Positions 45,289-63,640 of a stretch of DNA of 64,000 bases are shown in pieces (position 1 is the stretch's first letter; each line of letters starts with the position of its first letter). The stretch comes from Astropecten irregularis (lineage: Eukaryota; Echinodermata; Asteroidea; Paxillosida; Astropectinidae). The stretch lies in assembly GCA_963971285.1 (NCBI GenBank), contig OZ020255.1:6634001-6698000 (forward strand), written 5' to 3'. The translations under genes were made by a program, and so were the position numbers. The notes below the pieces were generated by a model. That model did not search any database and was not told the DNA's origin. It was given only the letters and a program-made list of their open reading frames with translations.

Positions 45289-45535
45289 CTTGCGGAGACA
45301 CCATGTATAATACTCTTTTAGGAAGATGTGTGGTCCTGAAAAGGACCGATGAGAGTGGATTCTTGATGTTTCAACTAGTGTGCTCTAGTCGTCCTTAGGA
45401 GTCGTCCACTCTCTCCTGAGGACCACTAGAGCACACTAGTCGAAACGTTTAGAATCCACTCTCAACGGTCCTTCTCAGGACCACACACCTTCCAAGAAGA
45501 GTATTATACATGGTGTCACCGCAAGTCTTACTCAT
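45289..45535. repeat. Long inverted repeat with conserved hairpins
   Basis: Arms of about 110 bp: GCGGAGACACCATGTATAAT, GTGGTCCTGAAAAGGACC, GAGAGTGGATTCTTGATGTT and ACTAGTGTGCTCTAGT, mirrored on the right. The right arm reads CTGAGGAC, a stem ACTAG/CTAGT, then CGAAACGT. Single or shorter versions lie at 35100-35169 and 39241-39420. The transposon class is unknown; a Penelope-type terminal repeat is possible. Confidence 0.7.
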
Positions 45536-49046: not shown

Positions 49047-49117
49047 ACGGTTTATCCCACTTCTGACACCAATTGCAGGTTGCTATCAGTGCAGTGCAAC
49101 CGTCTCTACTGTCCGGC
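49047..49117 (-). repeat. LTR 3' end and primer-binding-site remnant at the receptor stop
   Basis: On the minus strand GACAGTAGAGACGGTTGCAC, a variable spacer, then GCAAT and TGGTGTCAGAAGTGGGATAA. The same order stands on the plus strand at 49974-50040. TGGTGTCAGAAGTGGGA resembles the complement of a tRNA-Leu 3' end, a known primer site type in Ty3/gypsy elements. It overlaps the last nine codons of the GPCR. Confidence 0.6.
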
Positions 49118-49720
49118 CGCCAGCAGTTCCCGAAGCCCCTGGAAAGTTTCCAGCTTGGTCGGTGCGGGAGCTAGTATCACCGGGGCCCTGCCGGCCACGC
49201 TGCTGCCTCCTCGTCTGCTTGAAGCACACCGGGAACGCCTTTTTGAAGTACCGCCTGTAATTCTCGCCCATGAAGGCGTACACGAACGGGTTGACGCTGG
49301 AGTTGGCGTAGGACAGCGTGTGGGCTGCCATCTTGGAGATGTAGGTGGCCTCCGTCCAGGGGAAGAAGGGGTCCAGTCGCATCCAGAGGTGGATGATGTA
49401 GATGGGAAGCCAGCAGATGGCGAAGACCAGGACCACCACCAGTACCATGCGGGTCACCTTGCGCTTCTGGCGAGCGTTGTGCAGGTTGGAGTTCTGGTCG
49501 GGCTCGCCGGGGGAGACACGAGACCAGAGCTTGCGCAGCATTATGCCATAGCACACGGTGATGGTAACGATGGGAATGACGTACAGAAGGATGAAGCTGA
49601 AGACGGCATAGCCGGGGATCATGATGGCCAGGGGCCAGAGCTCTGAGCAGACCAGCTCGCCAGTAGGGGTGACTGCTAGGTCAAAGTAGACGGCCACGGG
49701 AATGGAGATCAAGAAGGAAC
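49086..49720 (-). CDS. GPCR coding exon 3 (TM4 end to C-terminus)
   Basis: Acceptor cccggcag; completes Gly173, then [14 protein letters not shown] and the rest of the receptor to TGA at 49088-49086. It carries ECL2 with Cys197, TM5 (about 206-233), a basic third loop with [10 protein letters not shown]6, TM7 and the [15 protein letters not shown] helix 8. The tail is Arg/Gly/Ser-rich and ends TVETVALH. The last codons and 3' flank match an LTR-like repeat at 49974-50040. The long plus-strand frame over this exon is its shadow. Confidence 0.93.
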
Positions 49721-52700
49721 CTGCCGGGAAGTATAGAGGACAAAAACAAGAAGCTGTACAACATTCAGGACAGTGGTAAATGGGACAACAAGGAAGAAAT
49801 ACTATAGATTTACTTTACATTTTATACTCTTTTGGAGTATAACCCCAGAAAGTAAATAGTCCAATTATCGTACTGACGGGTAGTTTGGAAAGATGCAGCC
49901 CAGTAACTAGTTCTGACATCTATTCGCGAGCTCATGAATATTCCGTAGGCCCTTAAAATCCCTGTAGCTGCAAGACAGTGGAGACGGTCGCACTCTGGAC
50001 TGAACTCAAGCAGCAATTGGTGTCAGAAGTGGGATAAACCACTGTTGAGCTTGTGTGAGGTGCATGTCTTGTTTGAAAGAAAAATAAGGTAATTGCTTCA
50101 TTTCACCAGAAAGTTTGATCACCTTTTGGAAGTATTTTAGAGTTTTTGGACGAGTTTTGGTTTTGTGTTTTTATGATAAACGTTTTCCTGCCAGTTCCCT
50201 TACCTATCCAGATGCAAGCGTTGACGATGCAGGCCACTTTTGTAGTCCGTGTTTTGAGCGATCTGATTGGATGAACGATCGCCTGGTACCGGTCGATGCT
50301 CATGGCTGTCAGTGTGAGGCAGGTGCACTGCCCGGTCACCTGCAGGGGAGGGGAGTCAGGAACCAGACTTCATTCTCTTGGTTTGAGTATAGGCCACCTC
50401 GATTAAAGTAAATCACATTGCTTTGGCTAAAAACAACTTGACTTGACTTACAAGACTTATAACCAGCATTCTCTGAGTCACCCTCCTTAAGAGTCAAGAC
50501 GAACAGAGCACAATGTTCGGAACGAGTGTTAAACCATCGGCTCTTCTCAGAACCTCACACTTAACCGTTACCGCAAACCTACCTATATTTATAGTAATTC
50601 CACCATTCATAGCTTTAAGTCTTATCTAAACTCACAGGAAAATTAGGTCCCGTGCCACACAAAGCAACTTTTACAGGCAATTATACCACACACAAAGGGA
50701 AAATCTTGCTAGAACAAAATTTTTTTCCTTGTGCTTTCTCATTATCTTTAATGAAAGGTATATGGAAATTCAAAGATGAATTGCTATTTCTTCTTGGAAA
50801 TTTTATGGAATGGTTTGCCTGTTAATTGCCTCCTGTGTCAATATTCTTTCAAAATCATGACGTGTCCGGCCCTTCTAAAAATCTTGCTGGTTTCACACAT
50901 CCTTTTCGACCTCAGCGGGAAGTCCTCAATGTAAACATATAACCCCCAAGTCCATGCTGAGATAATCCCTATAATCACTTAAATAAACAACCTGCTCTTG
51001 ACCACAAACTCCAGGGTATGTTGCTGCCTAGCCCTAGGTTGCTGGAACTACTTTCATGTAAAGACACGACTTGAGCCAGGAGAAAGTTTTCCATCCGAAA
51101 ATCATTACAAATAATAAAACACTTTGTAAAACGTTTGCCTTATGGATAATGATCCCGAATTCATTTTTAGATATTTTTAATAATGAATTTAAGTTAAAGG
51201 TTGACTTCGGGGAGAAAATGTAGGTATCAAAACAAATCGCTCACGCTAACCTCAGATTTGTGAAAACTTGTTACTGTTAGGGAGTACCTTTATTAGGAGC
51301 CAAGCTTGTGCAGTTTTGACTAAAATAAAAACCGAAAAACCGTCTGAAAAGGGTAAAATCGCGTCGGAAAACCGATAACAAAAATAATTTAAATAGACGA
51401 CAAAACATTAGAAATTAAAAAATAAAATGAGATCGTAAAACTGTAAAACGTTTGCCCTACAGTGATCGAGAATTGTTTTTGTTTTTTAGTAATGAATAGT
51501 GAATTTAATCACATAATTACAACTTCGGATTTTGGAGAGAAACTGGTACTTTGGTAGCAAATAAAAATCACCTGTTAGCCTCCGATAGGTCTGTGAAAAG
51601 TTCAAATACGTCGTATATTTTGGCGTTCCTGTCGCTGCGATTTAATCCACCGTCATAATGATCCTGCCATTTGCAAATTATAAGTACAGGCGAAATGAAC
51701 ATTCACATTTGGTTATGGAAGATTGCCTTTACAGACAGCGAAACCAAAATTTATTGTCGAAAAGTATGGCGTGCAAAGTTAACATTTAATCGGGAATAGA
51801 GATATCTCTATTAACAATAGAGATATCTCTATTAACAATAGAGATATCTCTATTACAAGACGTGCCAAGTTAACATTTAATCCCGAAATAGAGATATCTC
51901 TATTAATAATAGAGATATCTCTATTGTTAATGGAGATATCTCTATTATTAATAGAGATATCTCTATTAGTAATAGAGATATCTCTATTTCTAATAGAGAT
52001 ATCTCTATTATTAATAGAGATATCTCTATTAATAATAGAGATATCTCTATTACTAATAGAGATATCTCTATTTCTAATAGAGATATCTCTATTAATAATA
52101 GAGATATCTCTATTGTTAATAGAGATATCTCTATTTCGCAATAGAGATATCTCTATTGCACAATAGAGATATCTCTATTTCGCAATAGAGATATCTCTAT
52201 TATAATCAGCTTTCGACGTCAGCAGGTCGCCCTCTACGTTTTGTTTTGTTTAAATTTCTATCATCTTGAGGGGTTTCAAGTCGCGTCTTAATACTGTACT
52301 CCCGCAGTTGTTTACGCTGGGAAGTTTATGTATCTTTTTATGGTACCAGTCTGTCGAGATGTCGCCTAATCTGGCGAATTTCGCTATGTATGCGACGTTC
52401 CAAAACGGTCCTTAATCCAGCCATTATAAATTAATTGAAAGTGCCTGGGCATAATACATGTAATAACGAACATAATAAAATGACTTGATGCATGATGGGA
52501 TATGATGCGCGTGCCCCCTGGCTCACTGAAACTTTGTGCGTGACGTTACAACGACCACTCCGACCGGAAACATTAATAGAGATATCTCTATTAAAACCGG
52601 AAGTACACAATAGAGATATCTCTATTGTTAATAGAGATATCTCTATTACTAATAGAGATATCTCTATTGCTAATAGAGATATCTCTATTGCTAATAGAGA

Positions 52701-55700
52701 TATCTCTATTGCTAATAGAGATATCTCTATTCTTAATAGAGATATCTCTATTCTTAATAGAGATATCTCTATTTCTAATAGAGATATCTCTATTCTTAAT
52801 AGAGATATCTCTATTGTTAATAGAGATATCTCTATTCCCGATTAAATGTTAACTTTGCACGCCATAGAAAAGTGTCTGTCTAAATACATGTTCTCGCGAT
52901 CGTTTTGACTTCCGAGTTCACCAGACACTGGCACAAAATGTACGTACCATGCGTGCAACAGAAGACTGGTTTTGCGAGCGGGTGATCGAAACTTCAATGG
53001 TGACTCTAGAGGAGTCGAGAACTAGACTAGTAAACTTGCATCAGTCGATATCATGGAAACCTCGACGGGACTTTTGCGAAGAGCGTTCGCTCGTGCACAA
53101 CCTTTGGTAGATAATAATAGAATATCGGAACCATAGAAGTACGTACGTGTTTACTTTTGCAGGTGGTCTGATCTATTGAGCTAATCGCAGTGCGTGTTTT
53201 AGAATAGTGAAAATAATGCATTGCAAGGACTGAAGCAAGTTCAATCATTCCGACCACAAGCCTACATTGGGCACAGCACACACACCGGGCACAGCACACA
53301 CACCGCGTGGCATGGTTGCTGTGTTGGCACTGCATGCTGCATGCACCGTACGATCGAGATTGTGTGTGCCGTTGTGTGAGCTTTGTCGCCCGTATGCGCT
53401 GTGTAAGTTCTACGCTTTAGTGGTGTCCTGGTATATAGTTTGTTCCAAAACGATGTAGTTGTGTTACAAATACATGTAGATGAAATTTAAAGAATAAATA
53501 TATCCCATAGTACGTACACTTACAGCCCATTCGTACTATTTTGTTCAATTTTACCGGCAGGACAGCCTACAATATTAATGCGCACGCAACGGTAGCCGAC
53601 TAGCCGTACTCCAACACCGAAAAATAATCGTTCTCTGCGGTTCCTTTATCAATTTTGACGGTTCAAAAACGAAAACCAAACAACTTTTTACAAATATAAT
53701 TATTTTGATATTCACACCAACTCATATCTCCATACGTTTTTAAAGAAATTTCACTAGGGACCATTCAGGCAGGATGGCCTTTCCCCAGTTATCAAACTCA
53801 TTATTGGATTAGTGGTGATAACAATCTTAATCCCCCAGAGGCACTGCTAATTGCCCCTTCAAAAAAGTCCCAAAAGGATGCGTTGCGACCCGAGTTGAGG
53901 CCGGTTTACTCGGGTCTAGCTTAGATGGGGCGGACACGTAATGTGTTCTCCAAAATGACGGTCAAAACAAAGTAGCTGAGCTGTACTAGGCCCATCACTG
54001 TAGAAGTTATTGAAATATATTTAATCCAACTTGAACAAACAAAGAATGAATCCATTTTCAAATTGTCTGATTGTTTTTGTCATTGGCATCAGAAGTTGGA
54101 ATTATAGGGGCGCAATTTTAGCGCTTGCCCCGGGCGCCGTTTTCCCTAGATACGCCGCTGTACAGGATTACGCGATAGGGGGCCAGGGGGGGGGGACGTG
54201 CCCCCCTGGAAAACCTCGTGCCCCCCCCCCCCCCCATTTGAGATTTGGGTTGGTGGAAAAAAATATAATATATATTGTAGTGCCCCCCCCCCCAACAATT
54301 GCTAGTGCCCCCCTTGTGCCCCCCCAGACTCAAAAATCTGGTGACGCCACTCCCCCCCCCCCCCCCCCAAATATTTCGAGGTTGAATATCATTTAAGTTT
54401 ATTGTATAGATTAGAAATATTTCATGATCCTTGTTTTTTTTTTTAAGTCTTCGCAGTGCATTTATAAATACCGAATATCGTTTTTAAATGCTCTAAAATG
54501 CGAATTTTCAACTCTGTTTTTATTAAAAGGTCCCTGGTTTGGGAGGGGGTATCCCACCTCCCACAGCCTCCCCCCGCTCGGTCGCTTCGCTCCATCGCAT
54601 AGGACACCAAATCACCAATCATCCCCCACAATCATGAAAAGAAATCGACACCAGTGGCTATCGTACTCTTCGTATCGTATCGTACTCTTGACCTGATTGT
54701 AAAAGTGTATAGTACACAATTTTACACATCGTTACAAGTGACTTTAGTTAACAAATCATGATGAATTATGACCCAATCGCAATGATGTCGCTCTCACGGT
54801 GTCAGTTGCACATCGTTCTCAACGATCCAATGGACCGTACCGCAGAACATCCAGTTCCAATTCAAAAATGCTTACGAGAAAAACCGTGTTCGGTCCACAT
54901 AGTGATAATTCTTCCAAACCACAATTATTATGTTTTCTTGAGGAAGAAAAACAGGCTAAAAAGCAATGACAGTGGAACATGAACTAAACAACCAACAAAT
55001 CATTCCTCCTCGGATTGATGATGAAACCGCGAAGCCCTAATCATTCTCCCCTCCCGGTGAAATACGACTCGGTCCCTGCGGGCATGTCACCAATTTCCCG
55101 CTCATTATTATCCGCCCGGGGACATTATTTGTCAGTTGAGTTTTTATAGTTTCCCTAATTTTTCCCCATTCCTGTCGGACTTTGTGATTTAAGAGATGCT
55201 TTTAAATGTAGACATTTCCAGTATTCGTTATTATAGGCTTACGGGTCATCATTGAGGACATTGCTTTCACTGAAATCGTCTACCGCAAGCCTTGACAAAT
55301 AAGAGATGTTCAGGTACCATATTAGACTCCGTAAAACAATTGAATCAAGCCCCGCCAAGCCCAAAATGTAAATGCCCTAACATTAATGAAATGATTTTAA
55401 ATAAGGTGTCGAAATTATCAAGGTATTACAGGTAGTATCATACTTTAATAAGAAACCAAAACAGAAATGTAAGTTCACAGATTTACGTATCTTAACAGGG
55501 TAACGTAACTTTACAGGGTATAAAGATGGTGGCGGTAGAAACATACCGTTCAAATTTTCCGCCTAAAATGGTGTATTTATCCAGAAACAACGACCGAAAA
55601 TCTTGTTGATCTTTTAAAAGATCAAAAATAAAAGAGAAAAGACTGAAGAAATACTGTGGCTGTTTTTCACTGCTTCTCAAAAAGTGGGCACCGTATGGGA

Positions 55701-56815
55701 CTGAATTGAAATGTTCACAGATGACTGTTACTGTATCTGTCTTGATATTTTTGCCCATTTTAACAAAAGTATGATACTAACTTTAAATAAGTTTTTATCA
55801 ATATATTAAAATAGATAAGGGGAAAAATGAAATCTTTTGATCGCATAATTACTTAGGGAGACTGGTTAGCGTCTGAAACCGATGAACTTGTGATTGGGGG
55901 ACATCGGTCAATAGGGAGACATTTTAGACGTCTCGCTGAAAAAAAATTATTCTCAAAAACTTCTAATATCGGAAATGTTTTCTTTTAATTCTCGTAGTTT
56001 AAAACATTTGTCTAAAAACGTTTGGTTTAGCTGGGTTTCCTAACAAGGAAAAAAAGAACGGTTTATTCTATTTCGCGGGAAAATCTCCCTGATATTACCC
56101 AAAAGTCGTTGATAATTATGTTATCAATAGCAGATAATTTGAACTTTTTCTTGACATGTTTTGTCAAGCAAGGTGAATGGGAGACTTTGGAGAATCAGTC
56201 TTCGTGTCAACAGCGCATGCGCACGCACAACAGCGCAGGCGTAAAACAAAGCGCGCATGCTCACATTTGCGTGCGCGTGCGCTGTTGACTTGAAGAGCGA
56301 TTCTCAAAAGTCTCCGATTGTTAAAACATGGATAGCTGATAGAAATTATCATTCCCGGCGATGTCTCCCAAAAATTTAATTTTCAGAAGATGAACTGTTT
56401 CCCTATTTTGTAAAAAAAATTAGGTGTACTGTACCTGCATCATGTAAAAAACGAACTTGCACATGAAGCTGCCGAAGAGCCAGTTGGGCAACACGGAGAG
56501 CGTCGCAGTGAACGGCGCACAGCACAGCAGGAAAGATATATCGGTGACGGCCAGGTTGACGATGTAGTAGTTGGTGACCGTCTTCATGTGGCCGTGCCGG
56601 ACGATCACGTAGATGACCAGCGAGTTGCCTACCACGCCACACACCGTGATCAGGCCGAAGATGACCGGGATGAGCCAGGCGGCCTGACCGGCCGTGGCGT
56701 GCTCGACGGCCGCCGTGGTCAGGGCTGCTGCTGACGGGAGGGGGATGGTGGAGTCACCGGTGAGGCTAGCATCTGGTCCGCTCGTGGCGGTACTGGTGGT
56801 GGACGTATTCGTCAT
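49086..56815 (-). CDS. Kisspeptin-receptor-like class A GPCR, 3 coding exons
   Basis: Spliced minus-strand gene for a 383-residue seven-helix receptor, with exons 56435-56815, 50204-50339 and 49086-49720. It should sit in the plasma membrane and bind a peptide ligand. Landmarks: Asn3 in NTS (glycosylation), TM1 with [10 protein letters not shown] (Asn64), TM2 [18 protein letters not shown] (Asp92), Cys119 and Cys197 for the extracellular disulfide, DRY at 143-145, TM4 CIWIGSF (Trp171), TM6 CWLP at 275-278, TM7 NPFVY at 316-320, and Cys338 as a possible palmitoylation site. FLLCCxPFTA, FMCKFV and TLTAMSxDR match GPR54/kisspeptin receptors better than galanin or allatostatin-A receptors. This is a recall-based family call with no search. 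The start ATG at 56815 is the first in frame after a stop in exon 1; a farther upstream coding exon is not excluded. Confidence 0.93.
49721..50203. other. GPCR intron 2 with LTR remnant
   Basis: A 483-base intron. The plus-strand segment about 49960-50041 ends in a GCAAT / TGGTGTCAGAAGTGGGAT junction typical of an LTR 3' end followed by a tRNA-primed binding site. Confidence 0.6.
49960..50041 (+). repeat. LTR 3' end and primer-binding-site remnant in GPCR intron 2
   Basis: TGCAAGACAGTGGAGACGGT, CGCACT, spacer, then CAGCAAT / TGGTGTCAGAAGTGGGATAA. The left limit of the LTR is not clear; it may reach back towards 49820. Confidence 0.6.
50204..50339 (-). CDS. GPCR coding exon 2 (TM3-TM4)
   Basis: A 136-base exon between acceptor cctgcag and donor gtaagg. 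It encodes [18 protein letters not shown], the second intracellular loop [16 protein letters not shown], and TM4 [11 protein letters not shown]. It leaves one base of Gly173. The DRY motif directly after TLTAMS is typical of peptide receptors. Confidence 0.93.
51795..52201. repeat. EcoRV-site palindrome array A
   Basis: About 17-18 units of AATAGAGATATCTCTATT, mostly separated by 3 bases (AAC, ACT, AAT, GCA and so on). Each unit is its own reverse complement and holds a GATATC site. Because 21 is a multiple of 3, the array is stop-free in several frames and gives false ORFs reading NRDISI or LIEISL. Confidence 0.95.
52573..52841. repeat. EcoRV-site palindrome array B
   Basis: Twelve units of the same 18-bp palindrome. 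The innermost is set apart by a short spacer with ACCGGAAGTACAC, the others by 3-base spacers such as GTT, ACT, GCT and CTT. Confidence 0.95.
55430..55782 (+). mobile_element. TTAA MITE copy in GPCR intron 1
   Basis: Copy of the family seen at 2550. The left flank has decayed to TTAC; the right TTAA lies at 55783-55786. Confidence 0.82.
56175..56322. mobile_element. CAATGGGAGACTTTGG fold-back, copy 3
   Basis: AATGGGAGACTTTGGAGAAT to ATTCTCAAAAGTCTCCGATT with an inner GCGCATGCGCACGC block. Lies just downstream of GPCR exon 1. Confidence 0.7.
56435..56815 (-). CDS. GPCR coding exon 1 (N-terminus to TM3 start)
   Basis: 127 codons from [16 protein letters not shown] to FVFYMMQ, then donor gtacag; phase 0. 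It contains the Thr/Ser-rich extracellular N-terminus (1-45), TM1 (about 47-71), TM2 (about 83-107) and the first half of TM3. The in-frame frame upstream has no ATG before a TGA, so this start is the simplest. A possible 5' UTR acceptor (ttttcag) ends at 56930. A good donor (AAG then gtgagt) at 57861/57860 could end an upstream non-coding exon. Confidence 0.9.
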
Positions 56816-56974
56816 GGCCGTCCAGACCGGAAGTTCTTCCGGGCACTTCGTTGACGAAACCTTCTGACACGTTCGTTCTGGGTTCACATCACGGTGAGCA
56901 TGCCATGTAACTCAATGTTGACGTATCTCCTGAAAACCAAACACAAAATGTGGAATGGCTAAACTTTGAACAAT

Positions 56975-61289: not shown

Positions 61290-61669
61290 GTTAAAGGCAG
61301 CGTACAGAATTTTCAAGGCCTCCCAAAAATGTTTTGAGTTTGAGTCAGAAAATGGACTCAACCGTTCGTAAACAGTGCAAACAGTCACCGTGAGAAATCT
61401 TGGTTCATCAGATGCTGGGTTTTTCAAGGAAGTCAAGATTTAGTGTCTTTAAAAAAAAAGATCGTTCGTCCGAACGATTTAGTAGCATTTTGAAAGCGTG
61501 GTGTAACCGTGAAGGATTCAGGGGGGGGGGGGAGATTATTTCGGCCGTGTTTCTGCTATGAGATGAACAAATTAGTGTAAAAATGTACATGAAGCAACGT
61601 CTGTAAGGAACCTTCACTTCTGTTTAAGTACCAAATTCAGCCAACTTAAAACGCCGTTGTTTGCAAATC
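61290..61669 (-). repeat. Dispersed repeat hosting palindrome-array copy 2
   Basis: Reverse-strand relative of 17640-18010. Shared words include TTTGGTACTTAAACAGA, CAGACGTTG, TTCATGTAC and ACTGTTTGCACTG-like AT-rich DNA. Frames over both copies differ and show no known domain. The palindrome-array element interrupts this copy at CAAATC; the sequence resumes at 62833. Confidence 0.65.
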
Positions 61670-61700
61670 TATGGCGTGCAAAGTTAACATTTAATCGGGA

Positions 61701-61985
61701 ATAGAGATATCTCTATTAAGAATAGAGATATCTCTATTAAGAATAGAGATATCTCTATTAGAAATAGAGATATCTCTATTAAGAATAGAGATATCTCTAT
61801 TAAGAATAGAGATATCTCTATTAGCAATAGAGATATCTCTATTAGCAATAGAGATATCTCTATTAGCAATAGAGATATCTCTATTAGTAATAGAGATATC
61901 TCTATTAACAATAGAGATATCTCTATTAACAATAGAGATATCTCTATTGTGTACTTCCGGTTTTAATAGAGATATCTCTATTAAT
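61701..61985. repeat. EcoRV-site palindrome array B of copy 2
   Basis: Thirteen units of the 18-bp palindrome, the last isolated by the CGGTTTT-containing spacer. One unit more than in array B of copy 1. Confidence 0.93.
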
Positions 61986-62354
61986 GTTTCCGGTCGGAGT
62001 GGTCGTTGTAACGTCACGCACAATGTCAGTGAGCCAGGGGGCACGCGCATCATATCCCATCATGCATCAAGTCATTTTATTATGTTCGTTATTACATGTT
62101 TTATGCCCAGGCACTTTCAATTAATTTATAATGGCTGGATTAAGGACCGTTTTGGAACGTCGCATACATAGCGAAATTCGCCAGATTAGGCGACATCTCG
62201 ACAGACTGGTACCATAAAAAGATACATAAACTTCCCAGCGTAAACAACTGCGGGAGTACAGTATTAAGACGCGACTTGAAACCCCTCAAGATGATAGAAA
62301 TTTAAACAAAACAAAACGTAGAGGGCGACCTGCTGACGTCGAAAGCTGATTATA

Positions 62355-62812
62355 ATAGAGATATCTCTATTGCGAAATAGAGATATCTCTATTGTGCAAT
62401 AGAGATATCTCTATTGCGAAATAGAGATATCTCTATTAACAATAGAGATATCTCTATTATTAATAGAGATATCTCTATTAGAAATAGAGATATCTCTATT
62501 AGTAATAGAGATATCTCTATTATTAATAGAGATATCTCTATTAATAATAGAGATATCTCTATTGTTAATAGAGATATCTCTATTAATAATAGAGATATCT
62601 CTATTAGAAATAGAGATATCTCTATTACTAATAGAGATATCTCTATTAATAATAGAGATATCTCTATTAACAATAGAGATATCTCTATTATCAATAGAGA
62701 TATCTCTATTTCGGGATTAAATGTTAACTTGGCACGTCTTGTAATAGAGATATCTCTATTGTTAATAGAGATATCTCTATTGTTAATAGAGATATCTCTA
62801 TTCCCGATTAAA
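62355..62812. repeat. EcoRV-site palindrome array A of copy 2
   Basis: About 20 units of AATAGAGATATCTCTATT, with the internal terminal-repeat duplicate (AAGTTAACATTTAATCCCG in reverse) near 62712-62743. Three units lie between that duplicate and the element end, as in copy 1. Confidence 0.93.
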
Positions 62813-63640
62813 TGTTAACTTTGCACGCCATACAAATCCTATAATTATGCTAGTTGAATCCTGTCACCATCTCAGATAATAATTCCTTATTGCACCTTAT
62901 GTCTTTTTTTACGACTCTCTTCCATGCTAAAAAAAAAAAAAATTTTGCTCGGGCTATTTTTGAATGATATTTAGGATGCCGCGTCTCCATATGGTGAGAT
63001 TGGATTGAAGTATGGGCGCTCGGATCCTAAATATATATCCCTATAAGAGTCATCAGGATAAGTGTTTATAATTCACGATACTTTTTATTTTGGCATTTCG
63101 AGGAGAGCTGCCCTTTCAAAATCGAATGCACAACTGACTAAGAAGCTTCATTTTTGAACTGTGATTTGATCACTGAATCCACACGACGGTGGTGCACTTA
63201 TCACAAATTACATGTATAGTACCCTGACTCCTGGTATGTTACGGCATAGTATAATATGGAGGTTGACTGAGCACCATGTCGATAACTCGTCAGTGAAAAA
63301 AAAACATGTATAGTGTACTACTATAGTATACTAGCTGTATCTTTCAACACATGTACTTTATATTAGAGGCATAAAGCCCATAGATAAGTACATGTATGGC
63401 ACAGGGCTTGACAAGCAAGAAAATAATGATTTTTCGGTTTGAAAGCTTTGCAACGAATAATATCCATAATACTTAATAGAGCCATACTGTACAATATGTA
63501 AATTATTTCCTATCTCCTTTCTTGTCTTCTTCTTTTCCAGTCTAAAGCTGGTTGACTTATAGTTTCCTATTTCTTCACACAGCCCTTTGCACAAGCCTTC
63601 ATTTTAATAAAAAATGAGGAAAGCTGCAAAACTCCTTTAT

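Follow-up and report, generated by a model that had tools for sequence, protein, structure and literature searches.

Subterminal palindrome arrays in a gene-less starfish transposon: putative binding sites for an element-encoded protein dimer

Why would a transposable element consist to about half of one repeated palindrome? The question is raised by a stretch of 64,000 nucleotides from the starfish Astropecten irregularis (contig OZ020255.1, positions 6,634,001 to 6,698,000; hereafter the window), in which an element of 1,102 bp without a complete gene lies at 51765..52866, flanked on both sides by GAAAAG. We suggest, with moderate confidence, that this element is a deletion derivative of an IS3EU/GingerRoot-type transposon encoding a transposase with an rva_4 integrase core and a HECT-domain protein, and that its palindrome arrays may be subterminal dimer-binding sites for a protein encoded by the element itself.

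The terminal inverted repeat (TIR) proper is a perfect 30 bp at both ends, beginning TATGGCGTGC; the exact inverted match extends past it into the arrays, to 71 bp in the focal copy and 50 bp in a second copy within the window. From left to right the focal element comprises the TIR, 3 palindromic units, a degraded TIR copy, 15 units, a centre of 373 bp, 1 unit, 11 units and the other TIR. Of the 30 units, 29 are exact AATAGAGATATCTCTATT and one carries a substitution, so that a preliminary description of this locus, which took every unit to be self-complementary, holds for all units except this one; the TIRs, the 6-bp GAAAAG duplication and the roughly 30 units in two arrays that it reported are borne out. 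The arrays do not fill the two thirds of the element ascribed to them: the units make up 540 of the 1,102 bp (49%), and the array regions, even with the linkers and the short spacers of 32 and 16 bp counted in, 669 of the 1,102 bp (61%). Apart from the focal element and its second copy, Tandem Repeats Finder (TRF; score at least 50) found no array of period 19-23 with at least 4 copies in the window. The second copy and the degraded TIR copy are additions to the preliminary description, which mentions neither.

In the 475.7 Mb of genome searched, the exact 18-mer unit is present in 843 copies, against 0 for a reversed control pattern, and the first 27 bp of the TIR (with up to 3 mismatches) give 97 matches, again against 0 for the reversed control. 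The TIR matches can be grouped into 34 inverted pairs, of which 9 span 80-116 bp, 3 span 218-673 bp, 19 span 1,017-1,341 bp, and 3 are long (13.8, 13.8 and 24.0 kb). Among the complete short copies that bear arrays (n=15), the 6-bp duplication is exact in 12, has one mismatch in 1 and is missing in 2; among seven smaller TIR pairs it is exact in three (L079, L080, L085) but not in the other four (L081-L084), and a 218-bp pair without units (L019) also has no 6-bp duplication. A duplication of TA in place of 6 bp is disfavoured, because in 12 of the 15 copies the duplication comprises, without mismatch, all six bases adjoining TATGG. Consistent ends and duplications across the genome, whose lack the preliminary description had named among the findings that would refute its proposal, are thus found, and the classification of the focal sequence as a transposable element is supported. 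Among 12 copies, the unique centre deviates from the majority in 5 of 4,474 cells; the family has therefore moved recently. Being short, without a complete gene and with ends in common with a coding relative, the element has the features of a miniature inverted-repeat (MITE) or other non-autonomous element.

That coding relative is represented by three long copies, C18 and C15 (13.8 kb each) and C1 (24 kb, with extra sequence), whose ends and arrays are as in the focal element; C18 and C15 are 99.5% and 99.8% alike over two long shared stretches. Exact 6-bp duplications flank two of the three (CAAATT in C18, CAAAAT in C1), while C15 has none matching. Comparison with Pfam was confined to longer frames and took in nine of the 15 listed (the remaining six are five array frames and one further frame); it revealed an rva_4 integrase core on one strand (E 7.8e-44 and 2.1e-18) and a HECT domain on the opposite strand (E 1.6e-8). 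The short elements correspond to the two outer parts of the 13.8-kb form, fused near window base 52352, and their right part retains the beginning of the transposase frame. Judged from its sequence, the focal element is a non-autonomous internal-deletion derivative of this two-gene transposon of the same genome; a relative of autonomous type with shared ends and a transposase, such as the preliminary description had proposed to look for, is thereby found. The genome has 47 HECT places (after manual merging of 89 rows), of which 15 have an rva_4 match within 15 kb, in all 15 cases in convergent orientation; the HECT partner therefore belongs to several families of the lineage and not to one. 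Polinton/Maverick elements carry polymerase and capsid-type genes besides an integrase; only rva_4 and HECT exceed the cut-off in the nine frames compared, and we do not place the long form among them. Next to the C15 copy (L041/L042, C15:18248620-18262792) comes another, incomplete element that has the centre sequence in common with it, so that the locus is nested or rearranged.

The palindrome array is not peculiar to one family. We sampled the best 30 of 61 genome matches to rva_4, each with 1.5 kb of flank, and found a tandem array with a period of 21-22 bp and at least 3.5 copies at 18 of the 30 loci (L054-56 and L058-72). The units are family-specific and range from weakly to perfectly palindromic: the L062/63 unit TTAGGGCGTTATAACGCCCTAA is a perfect palindrome, the L066 unit TAATTCGTTTTAACGAATTA has a palindromicity of 0.90, and the unit cores are TCGTGCGCACGA in L071 and TCGTTCGAACGA in L070. 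For 11 array consensuses, one per family, each compared with its own shuffles, the combined p for palindromicity is 6e-10. Related elements thus bear rows of differing palindromes, as if each required its own docking strip. Three of the sampled loci (L051/52/73) are the focal long form, with arrays that fall beyond the 1.5-kb flank; L062/63 have an additional, non-palindromic 16-bp array on the other side. Some 3 kb upstream of the L047 core exon lies an array (L090) built of the palindrome CATGGTTTATAAACCATG and a variant with TACA, with 7 matches and periods of ~38, 51 and 89 bp, which is a candidate part of the L047 element.

Two further observations concern these arrays. At L059, L060 and L061 the transposase frame continues without a stop through the whole of the in-frame 21-bp array, each unit of which corresponds to 7 residues. 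An older relative (L020 1501-3027 / L077, C11:1008981-1011122) has a very long array of diverged AATAGAGACATCTCTATT-type units; it also includes an unrelated stretch, parts of which are present in L089.

Several of the families share a core. Five families, all in one transposase clade (L054 and L058-L071), have CGT-N4-ACG as their predominant unit core in the arrays sampled; it accounts for 13/13 of the CG-N6-CG sites in L058, 16/19 in L059, 13/14 in L062, 12/12 in L070, and 3/3 and 4/4 in L071. Genome-wide, pairs of CGT-N4-ACG number 548 at period 21 and 166 at period 22, against 123 and 90 for the reversed control. The first 50 places per period fall into 8 clusters (period 21) and 24 clusters (period 22), and among the places listed 8/8 and 12/24 clusters, respectively, lie within 20 kb of an rva_4 match (~0.5% expected), while 0/32 lie near a hAT match used as a coordinate control. 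The CGT families form one transposase clade with a support of 99/99; the focal transposase groups with L046, L048 and L050 (100/99), apart from the CGT families, in a tree of 18 short rows where the L046 branch is long and hence unsure. The focal core, GAG-ATAT-CTC, has the same register as CGT-N4-ACG, and in the older relative at C11:1008981 the units contain GAG-ACAT-CTC or variants with a different centre.

From the structure of the element, its relatives, and the spacing, positions and family-specific units of the arrays we infer that the arrays are bound, by which protein, and to what purpose. The palindromic units would be multi-copy sites for a protein dimer, a putative role that the preliminary description had already raised, that we favour and that is backed by the related elements at the level of sequence. 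Unit spacing corresponds to two helical turns, which would let the units face the same side of the DNA, so that a dimer reading palindromes on the 21-22-bp grid would sit on one DNA face. The element itself would most likely encode the DNA-binding reader, for which the helix-turn-helix region of the transposase is the first candidate; the arrays may gather this protein close to the ends and on the upstream side of the genes, where it could aid end pairing, gene control or both. Slippage or recombination would alter the number of units, with the palindrome core kept.

The transposases themselves match rva_4 over the Pfam cut-off, and rve and HTH_21 below it; HTH_21 matches are present in 3 of 10 transposases, all below the cut-off, and no relative with a solved structure was found by sequence at E <=1. 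The structural model of the L064 transposase (282 residues; predicted local distance difference test, pLDDT, 85.5; predicted template modelling score, pTM, 0.54) has two three-helix groups before a mixed strand-helix integrase core, and these groups may be helix-turn-helix domains. We infer that the transposase, and not a host factor, would read the arrays. L071 has arrays on both sides of its single transposase frame, within ~1.7 kb, which lowers the likelihood that the HECT protein reads them.

The position of the arrays would also suit promoter or operator sites, at which a host or element factor acts on two convergent genes and which deletion derivatives carry passively, an explanation that overlaps with the gene control proposed above. 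The 21-22-bp arrays lie upstream of the transposase frame in 18/18 loci, a count that speaks for dimer-binding sites too but stems partly from the 1.5-kb flanks, beyond which the downstream element end often lies; in the focal long form they lie upstream of both genes. The far array of L071, however, is downstream of its one transposase frame, and arrays persist in gene-less copies such as L037 (414 bp, 15 units), although an internal deletion would keep DNA near the ends anyway. We consider promoter or operator sites a rather unlikely explanation of the arrays.

A second alternative is that the palindromes are a by-product of DNA structure, extruding or slipping in replication and expanding by themselves with no binding role; extrusion, slippage and dsRNA formation are also effects that, according to the preliminary description, the arrays may promote. 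The number of units ranges from 30 to 37 among 12 copies with nearly identical centres, and the 80-bp copies resemble array-to-array deletions, as slippage would have it. In the 15 copies taken together (481 units), 14 of 8,658 positions of the 18-bp cores deviate, against 20 different linkers of 3-4 bp, of which 11 are common and whose order is largely conserved. If slippage were the sole process, it would make the linkers as uniform as the cores; within an element, however, the linkers have diverged and the cores have not, which suggests constraint on the core. It would also leave unexplained the CGT-N4-ACG core in several families, the 21-22-bp period and the position near the ends. We therefore give it little probability.

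Binding by a dimer, the explanation that we prefer, has to be weighed against a number of observations. Among the young, near-identical copies the cores vary as much as the centre (14/8,658 vs 5/4,474, p 0.63), as slippage would also predict; stronger constraint on the core than on the centre is not seen in recent copies, and the argument for constraint is therefore drawn only from the units within an element. Two 80-bp elements, L079 (C23:1556242) and L080 (C28:454750), consist of TIR, one palindrome and TIR with exact 6-bp duplications, which means that a large number of units is dispensable, or that units disappeared once the element had inserted. The L054-56 unit is weakly palindromic (0.70, shuffle p 0.07-0.08) and without CGT-N4-ACG, which is absent from the sampled L054 array; palindromicity is likewise 0.70 in L064 (p 0.06), L065 (p 0.05) and L072. 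The L053 array has a 31-bp period and is non-palindromic (shuffle p 0.72), that of L074 has a period of 53 bp, and no array is present in the sequence examined around L048 (with L089), L049, L050/75 and L057. CGT-N4-ACG is a minority in L064 (10/39 CG-N6-CG sites), L065 (1/10) and L068 (2 sites in ~7 units), and half of the period-22 clusters listed (12 of 24) have no rva_4 match nearby. Finally, GAG-N4-CTC pairs other than the focal core are not enriched (36 and 51 vs 78 and 55 in the control), and we have rejected GAG-N4-CTC as a second general half-site.

A broader proposal seems to us possible rather than probable: that the lineage as a whole carries an operator strip at its ends on a grid of two helical turns, with family palindromes on a common half-site logic that co-evolve with each family's own DNA-binding domain, such that each family would control its own copies only. 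If the arrays are docking strips, the lineage would offer a simple readable code of palindrome half-site and 21-22-bp grid in several families of one genome, and the co-evolution of transposon proteins with their cis-targets would be directly testable. The lineage also spreads hundreds of perfect, potentially regulatory palindromes over the host genome.

The features of the two copies are collected in the table below. Elsewhere in the window, Rfam identifies two histone 3' stem-loops, one per strand, at 45307-45507, which suggests a histone gene pair. A G protein-coupled receptor frame at 49089-49814 on the minus strand matches starfish GPR54-like (kisspeptin-receptor-like) proteins, with an identity of 73-75% to Asterias, Patiria and Acanthaster proteins and <=55% to others among the matches listed; a second such receptor frame, at 56420-56911 on the minus strand, was recognised by eye.

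Table. Features of the focal element and its second copy (window positions; the last column gives the basis of the assignment).
Feature	Position	Strand	Basis
6-bp target site duplication GAAAAG, left	51759..51764	.	sequence
Left terminal inverted repeat, TATGGCGTGCAAAGTTAACATTTAATCGGG	51765..51794	+	sequence, genome matches
3 palindromic units, AAC linkers	51795..51854	.	sequence
Degraded internal copy of terminal repeat, 4 mismatches over 27 bp	51856..51886	+	sequence
Main left palindrome array, 15 units, period 21-22 bp	51887..52201	.	sequence, TRF
Unique centre; left part matches HECT-gene end, right part transposase end of 13.8-kb relative, joined near 52352	52202..52574	.	
Remnant of first transposase codons, ends at deletion junction	52353..52424	-	by eye vs long-form frame
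Single palindromic unit	52575..52592	.	
Right palindrome array, 11 units, 21-bp period	52609..52836	.	sequence, TRF
Right terminal inverted repeat	52837..52866	-	
6-bp target site duplication GAAAAG, right	52867..52872	.	
Second copy's duplication CAAATC, left	61664..61669	.	
Second copy, 1,163 bp, 33 units, inverse orientation	61670..62832	-	
Second copy's duplication CAAATC, right	62833..62838	.	

The preliminary description knew of no described family with this layout. In the literature searched (IS3EU, HECT with transposases, subterminal or palindromic repeats, echinoderm palindromes; Repbase/Dfam and most subscription texts were outside its scope) we found no description of the arrays, whereas the ends, duplication length and transposase type fit IS3EU/GingerRoot. 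Among viral contigs, 26 pattern matches to relatives were obtained, none of them confirmed. The amphioxus 'mirage' minisatellites are rejected as a counterpart; as defined in the accessible parts of PMC3087553 and PMC3902484, mirages are repeats over exon-intron borders. An amphioxus host is rejected as well, the receptor frame at 49089-49814 being closest to starfish proteins.

The placement in IS3EU/GingerRoot follows published descriptions of the superfamily and not Repbase sequences, and by ends, duplication length and protein type the focal family appears to fit it. According to the portions of PMC10045372 and PMC12730594 available, these elements have TA..TA termini (TAYGG..CCRTA in rust-fungus members), 6-bp duplications and an integrase-like DDE transposase; the rust members have TIRs >30 bp, and fungal members that bear TET have a partner gene running opposite to the transposase. 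The focal termini TATGG..CCATA fit the TA..TA ends, and the 6-bp duplication, integrase-type transposase and oppositely oriented partner gene are likewise shared. Boundaries of the other families, recognised by eye and mostly resting on one end, are TACGG in L062/63, L065, L069, L070 and L071, TACGA in L059-61, L066 and L067, and TATGA in L054-56, with none clear for L064 and L068; L071 has TTAAGC on both sides, a 6-bp duplication. The focal TIR is 30 bp proper, against >30 bp in the rust members, and reaches 71 and 50 bp when array units are counted. The partner differs, being an alpha-kinase (with a TET/JBP gene) in the fungal elements and HECT in the starfish lineage, and the accessible parts of the two descriptions contain no palindrome arrays such as those of the starfish lineage.

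For the arrays themselves, TNPA of En/Spm, VANC of VANDAL and the piggyBac/piggyBat transposase may serve as working analogues of the reader. Near-end palindromes (19 bp in piggyBac) are bound by a dimer of transposase domains in piggyBac/piggyBat, as described in the part of PMC11707139 consulted, but there are few of them per end at most, not arrays of at least 10, and the transposase is another one. VANDAL elements have family-specific, fast-turning tandem motifs in non-coding DNA that are bound by VANC (PMC5735166, in part), and the starfish arrays resemble them as fast-turning, family-specific tandem motifs in non-coding parts of related transposons. This likeness could mean that the arrays are anti-silencing targets, on which an element protein would keep chromatin open as VANC does, and the long form does have a second gene. 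The partner, however, has a HECT domain with no evident link to VANC, and VANDALs are plant elements with VANA, VANB and VANC, HECT and rva_4 being unmentioned in the accessible portion of that source; we consider an anti-silencing role improbable. In En/Spm (CACTA) elements, subterminal repeats are bound by TNPA and are needed in cis also by deletion derivatives (PMC2613891, in part). The starfish element has many short repeats just inside its ends that differ between families, as En/Spm does, and binding would be the shared function; it is not itself a member of this group, since it has TATGG termini and a 6-bp duplication in place of CACTA termini and a 3-bp duplication, and its transposase is another one. 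If the starfish arrays are docking strips for such a protein, they would be an animal counterpart of the plant TNPA and VANC target arrays.

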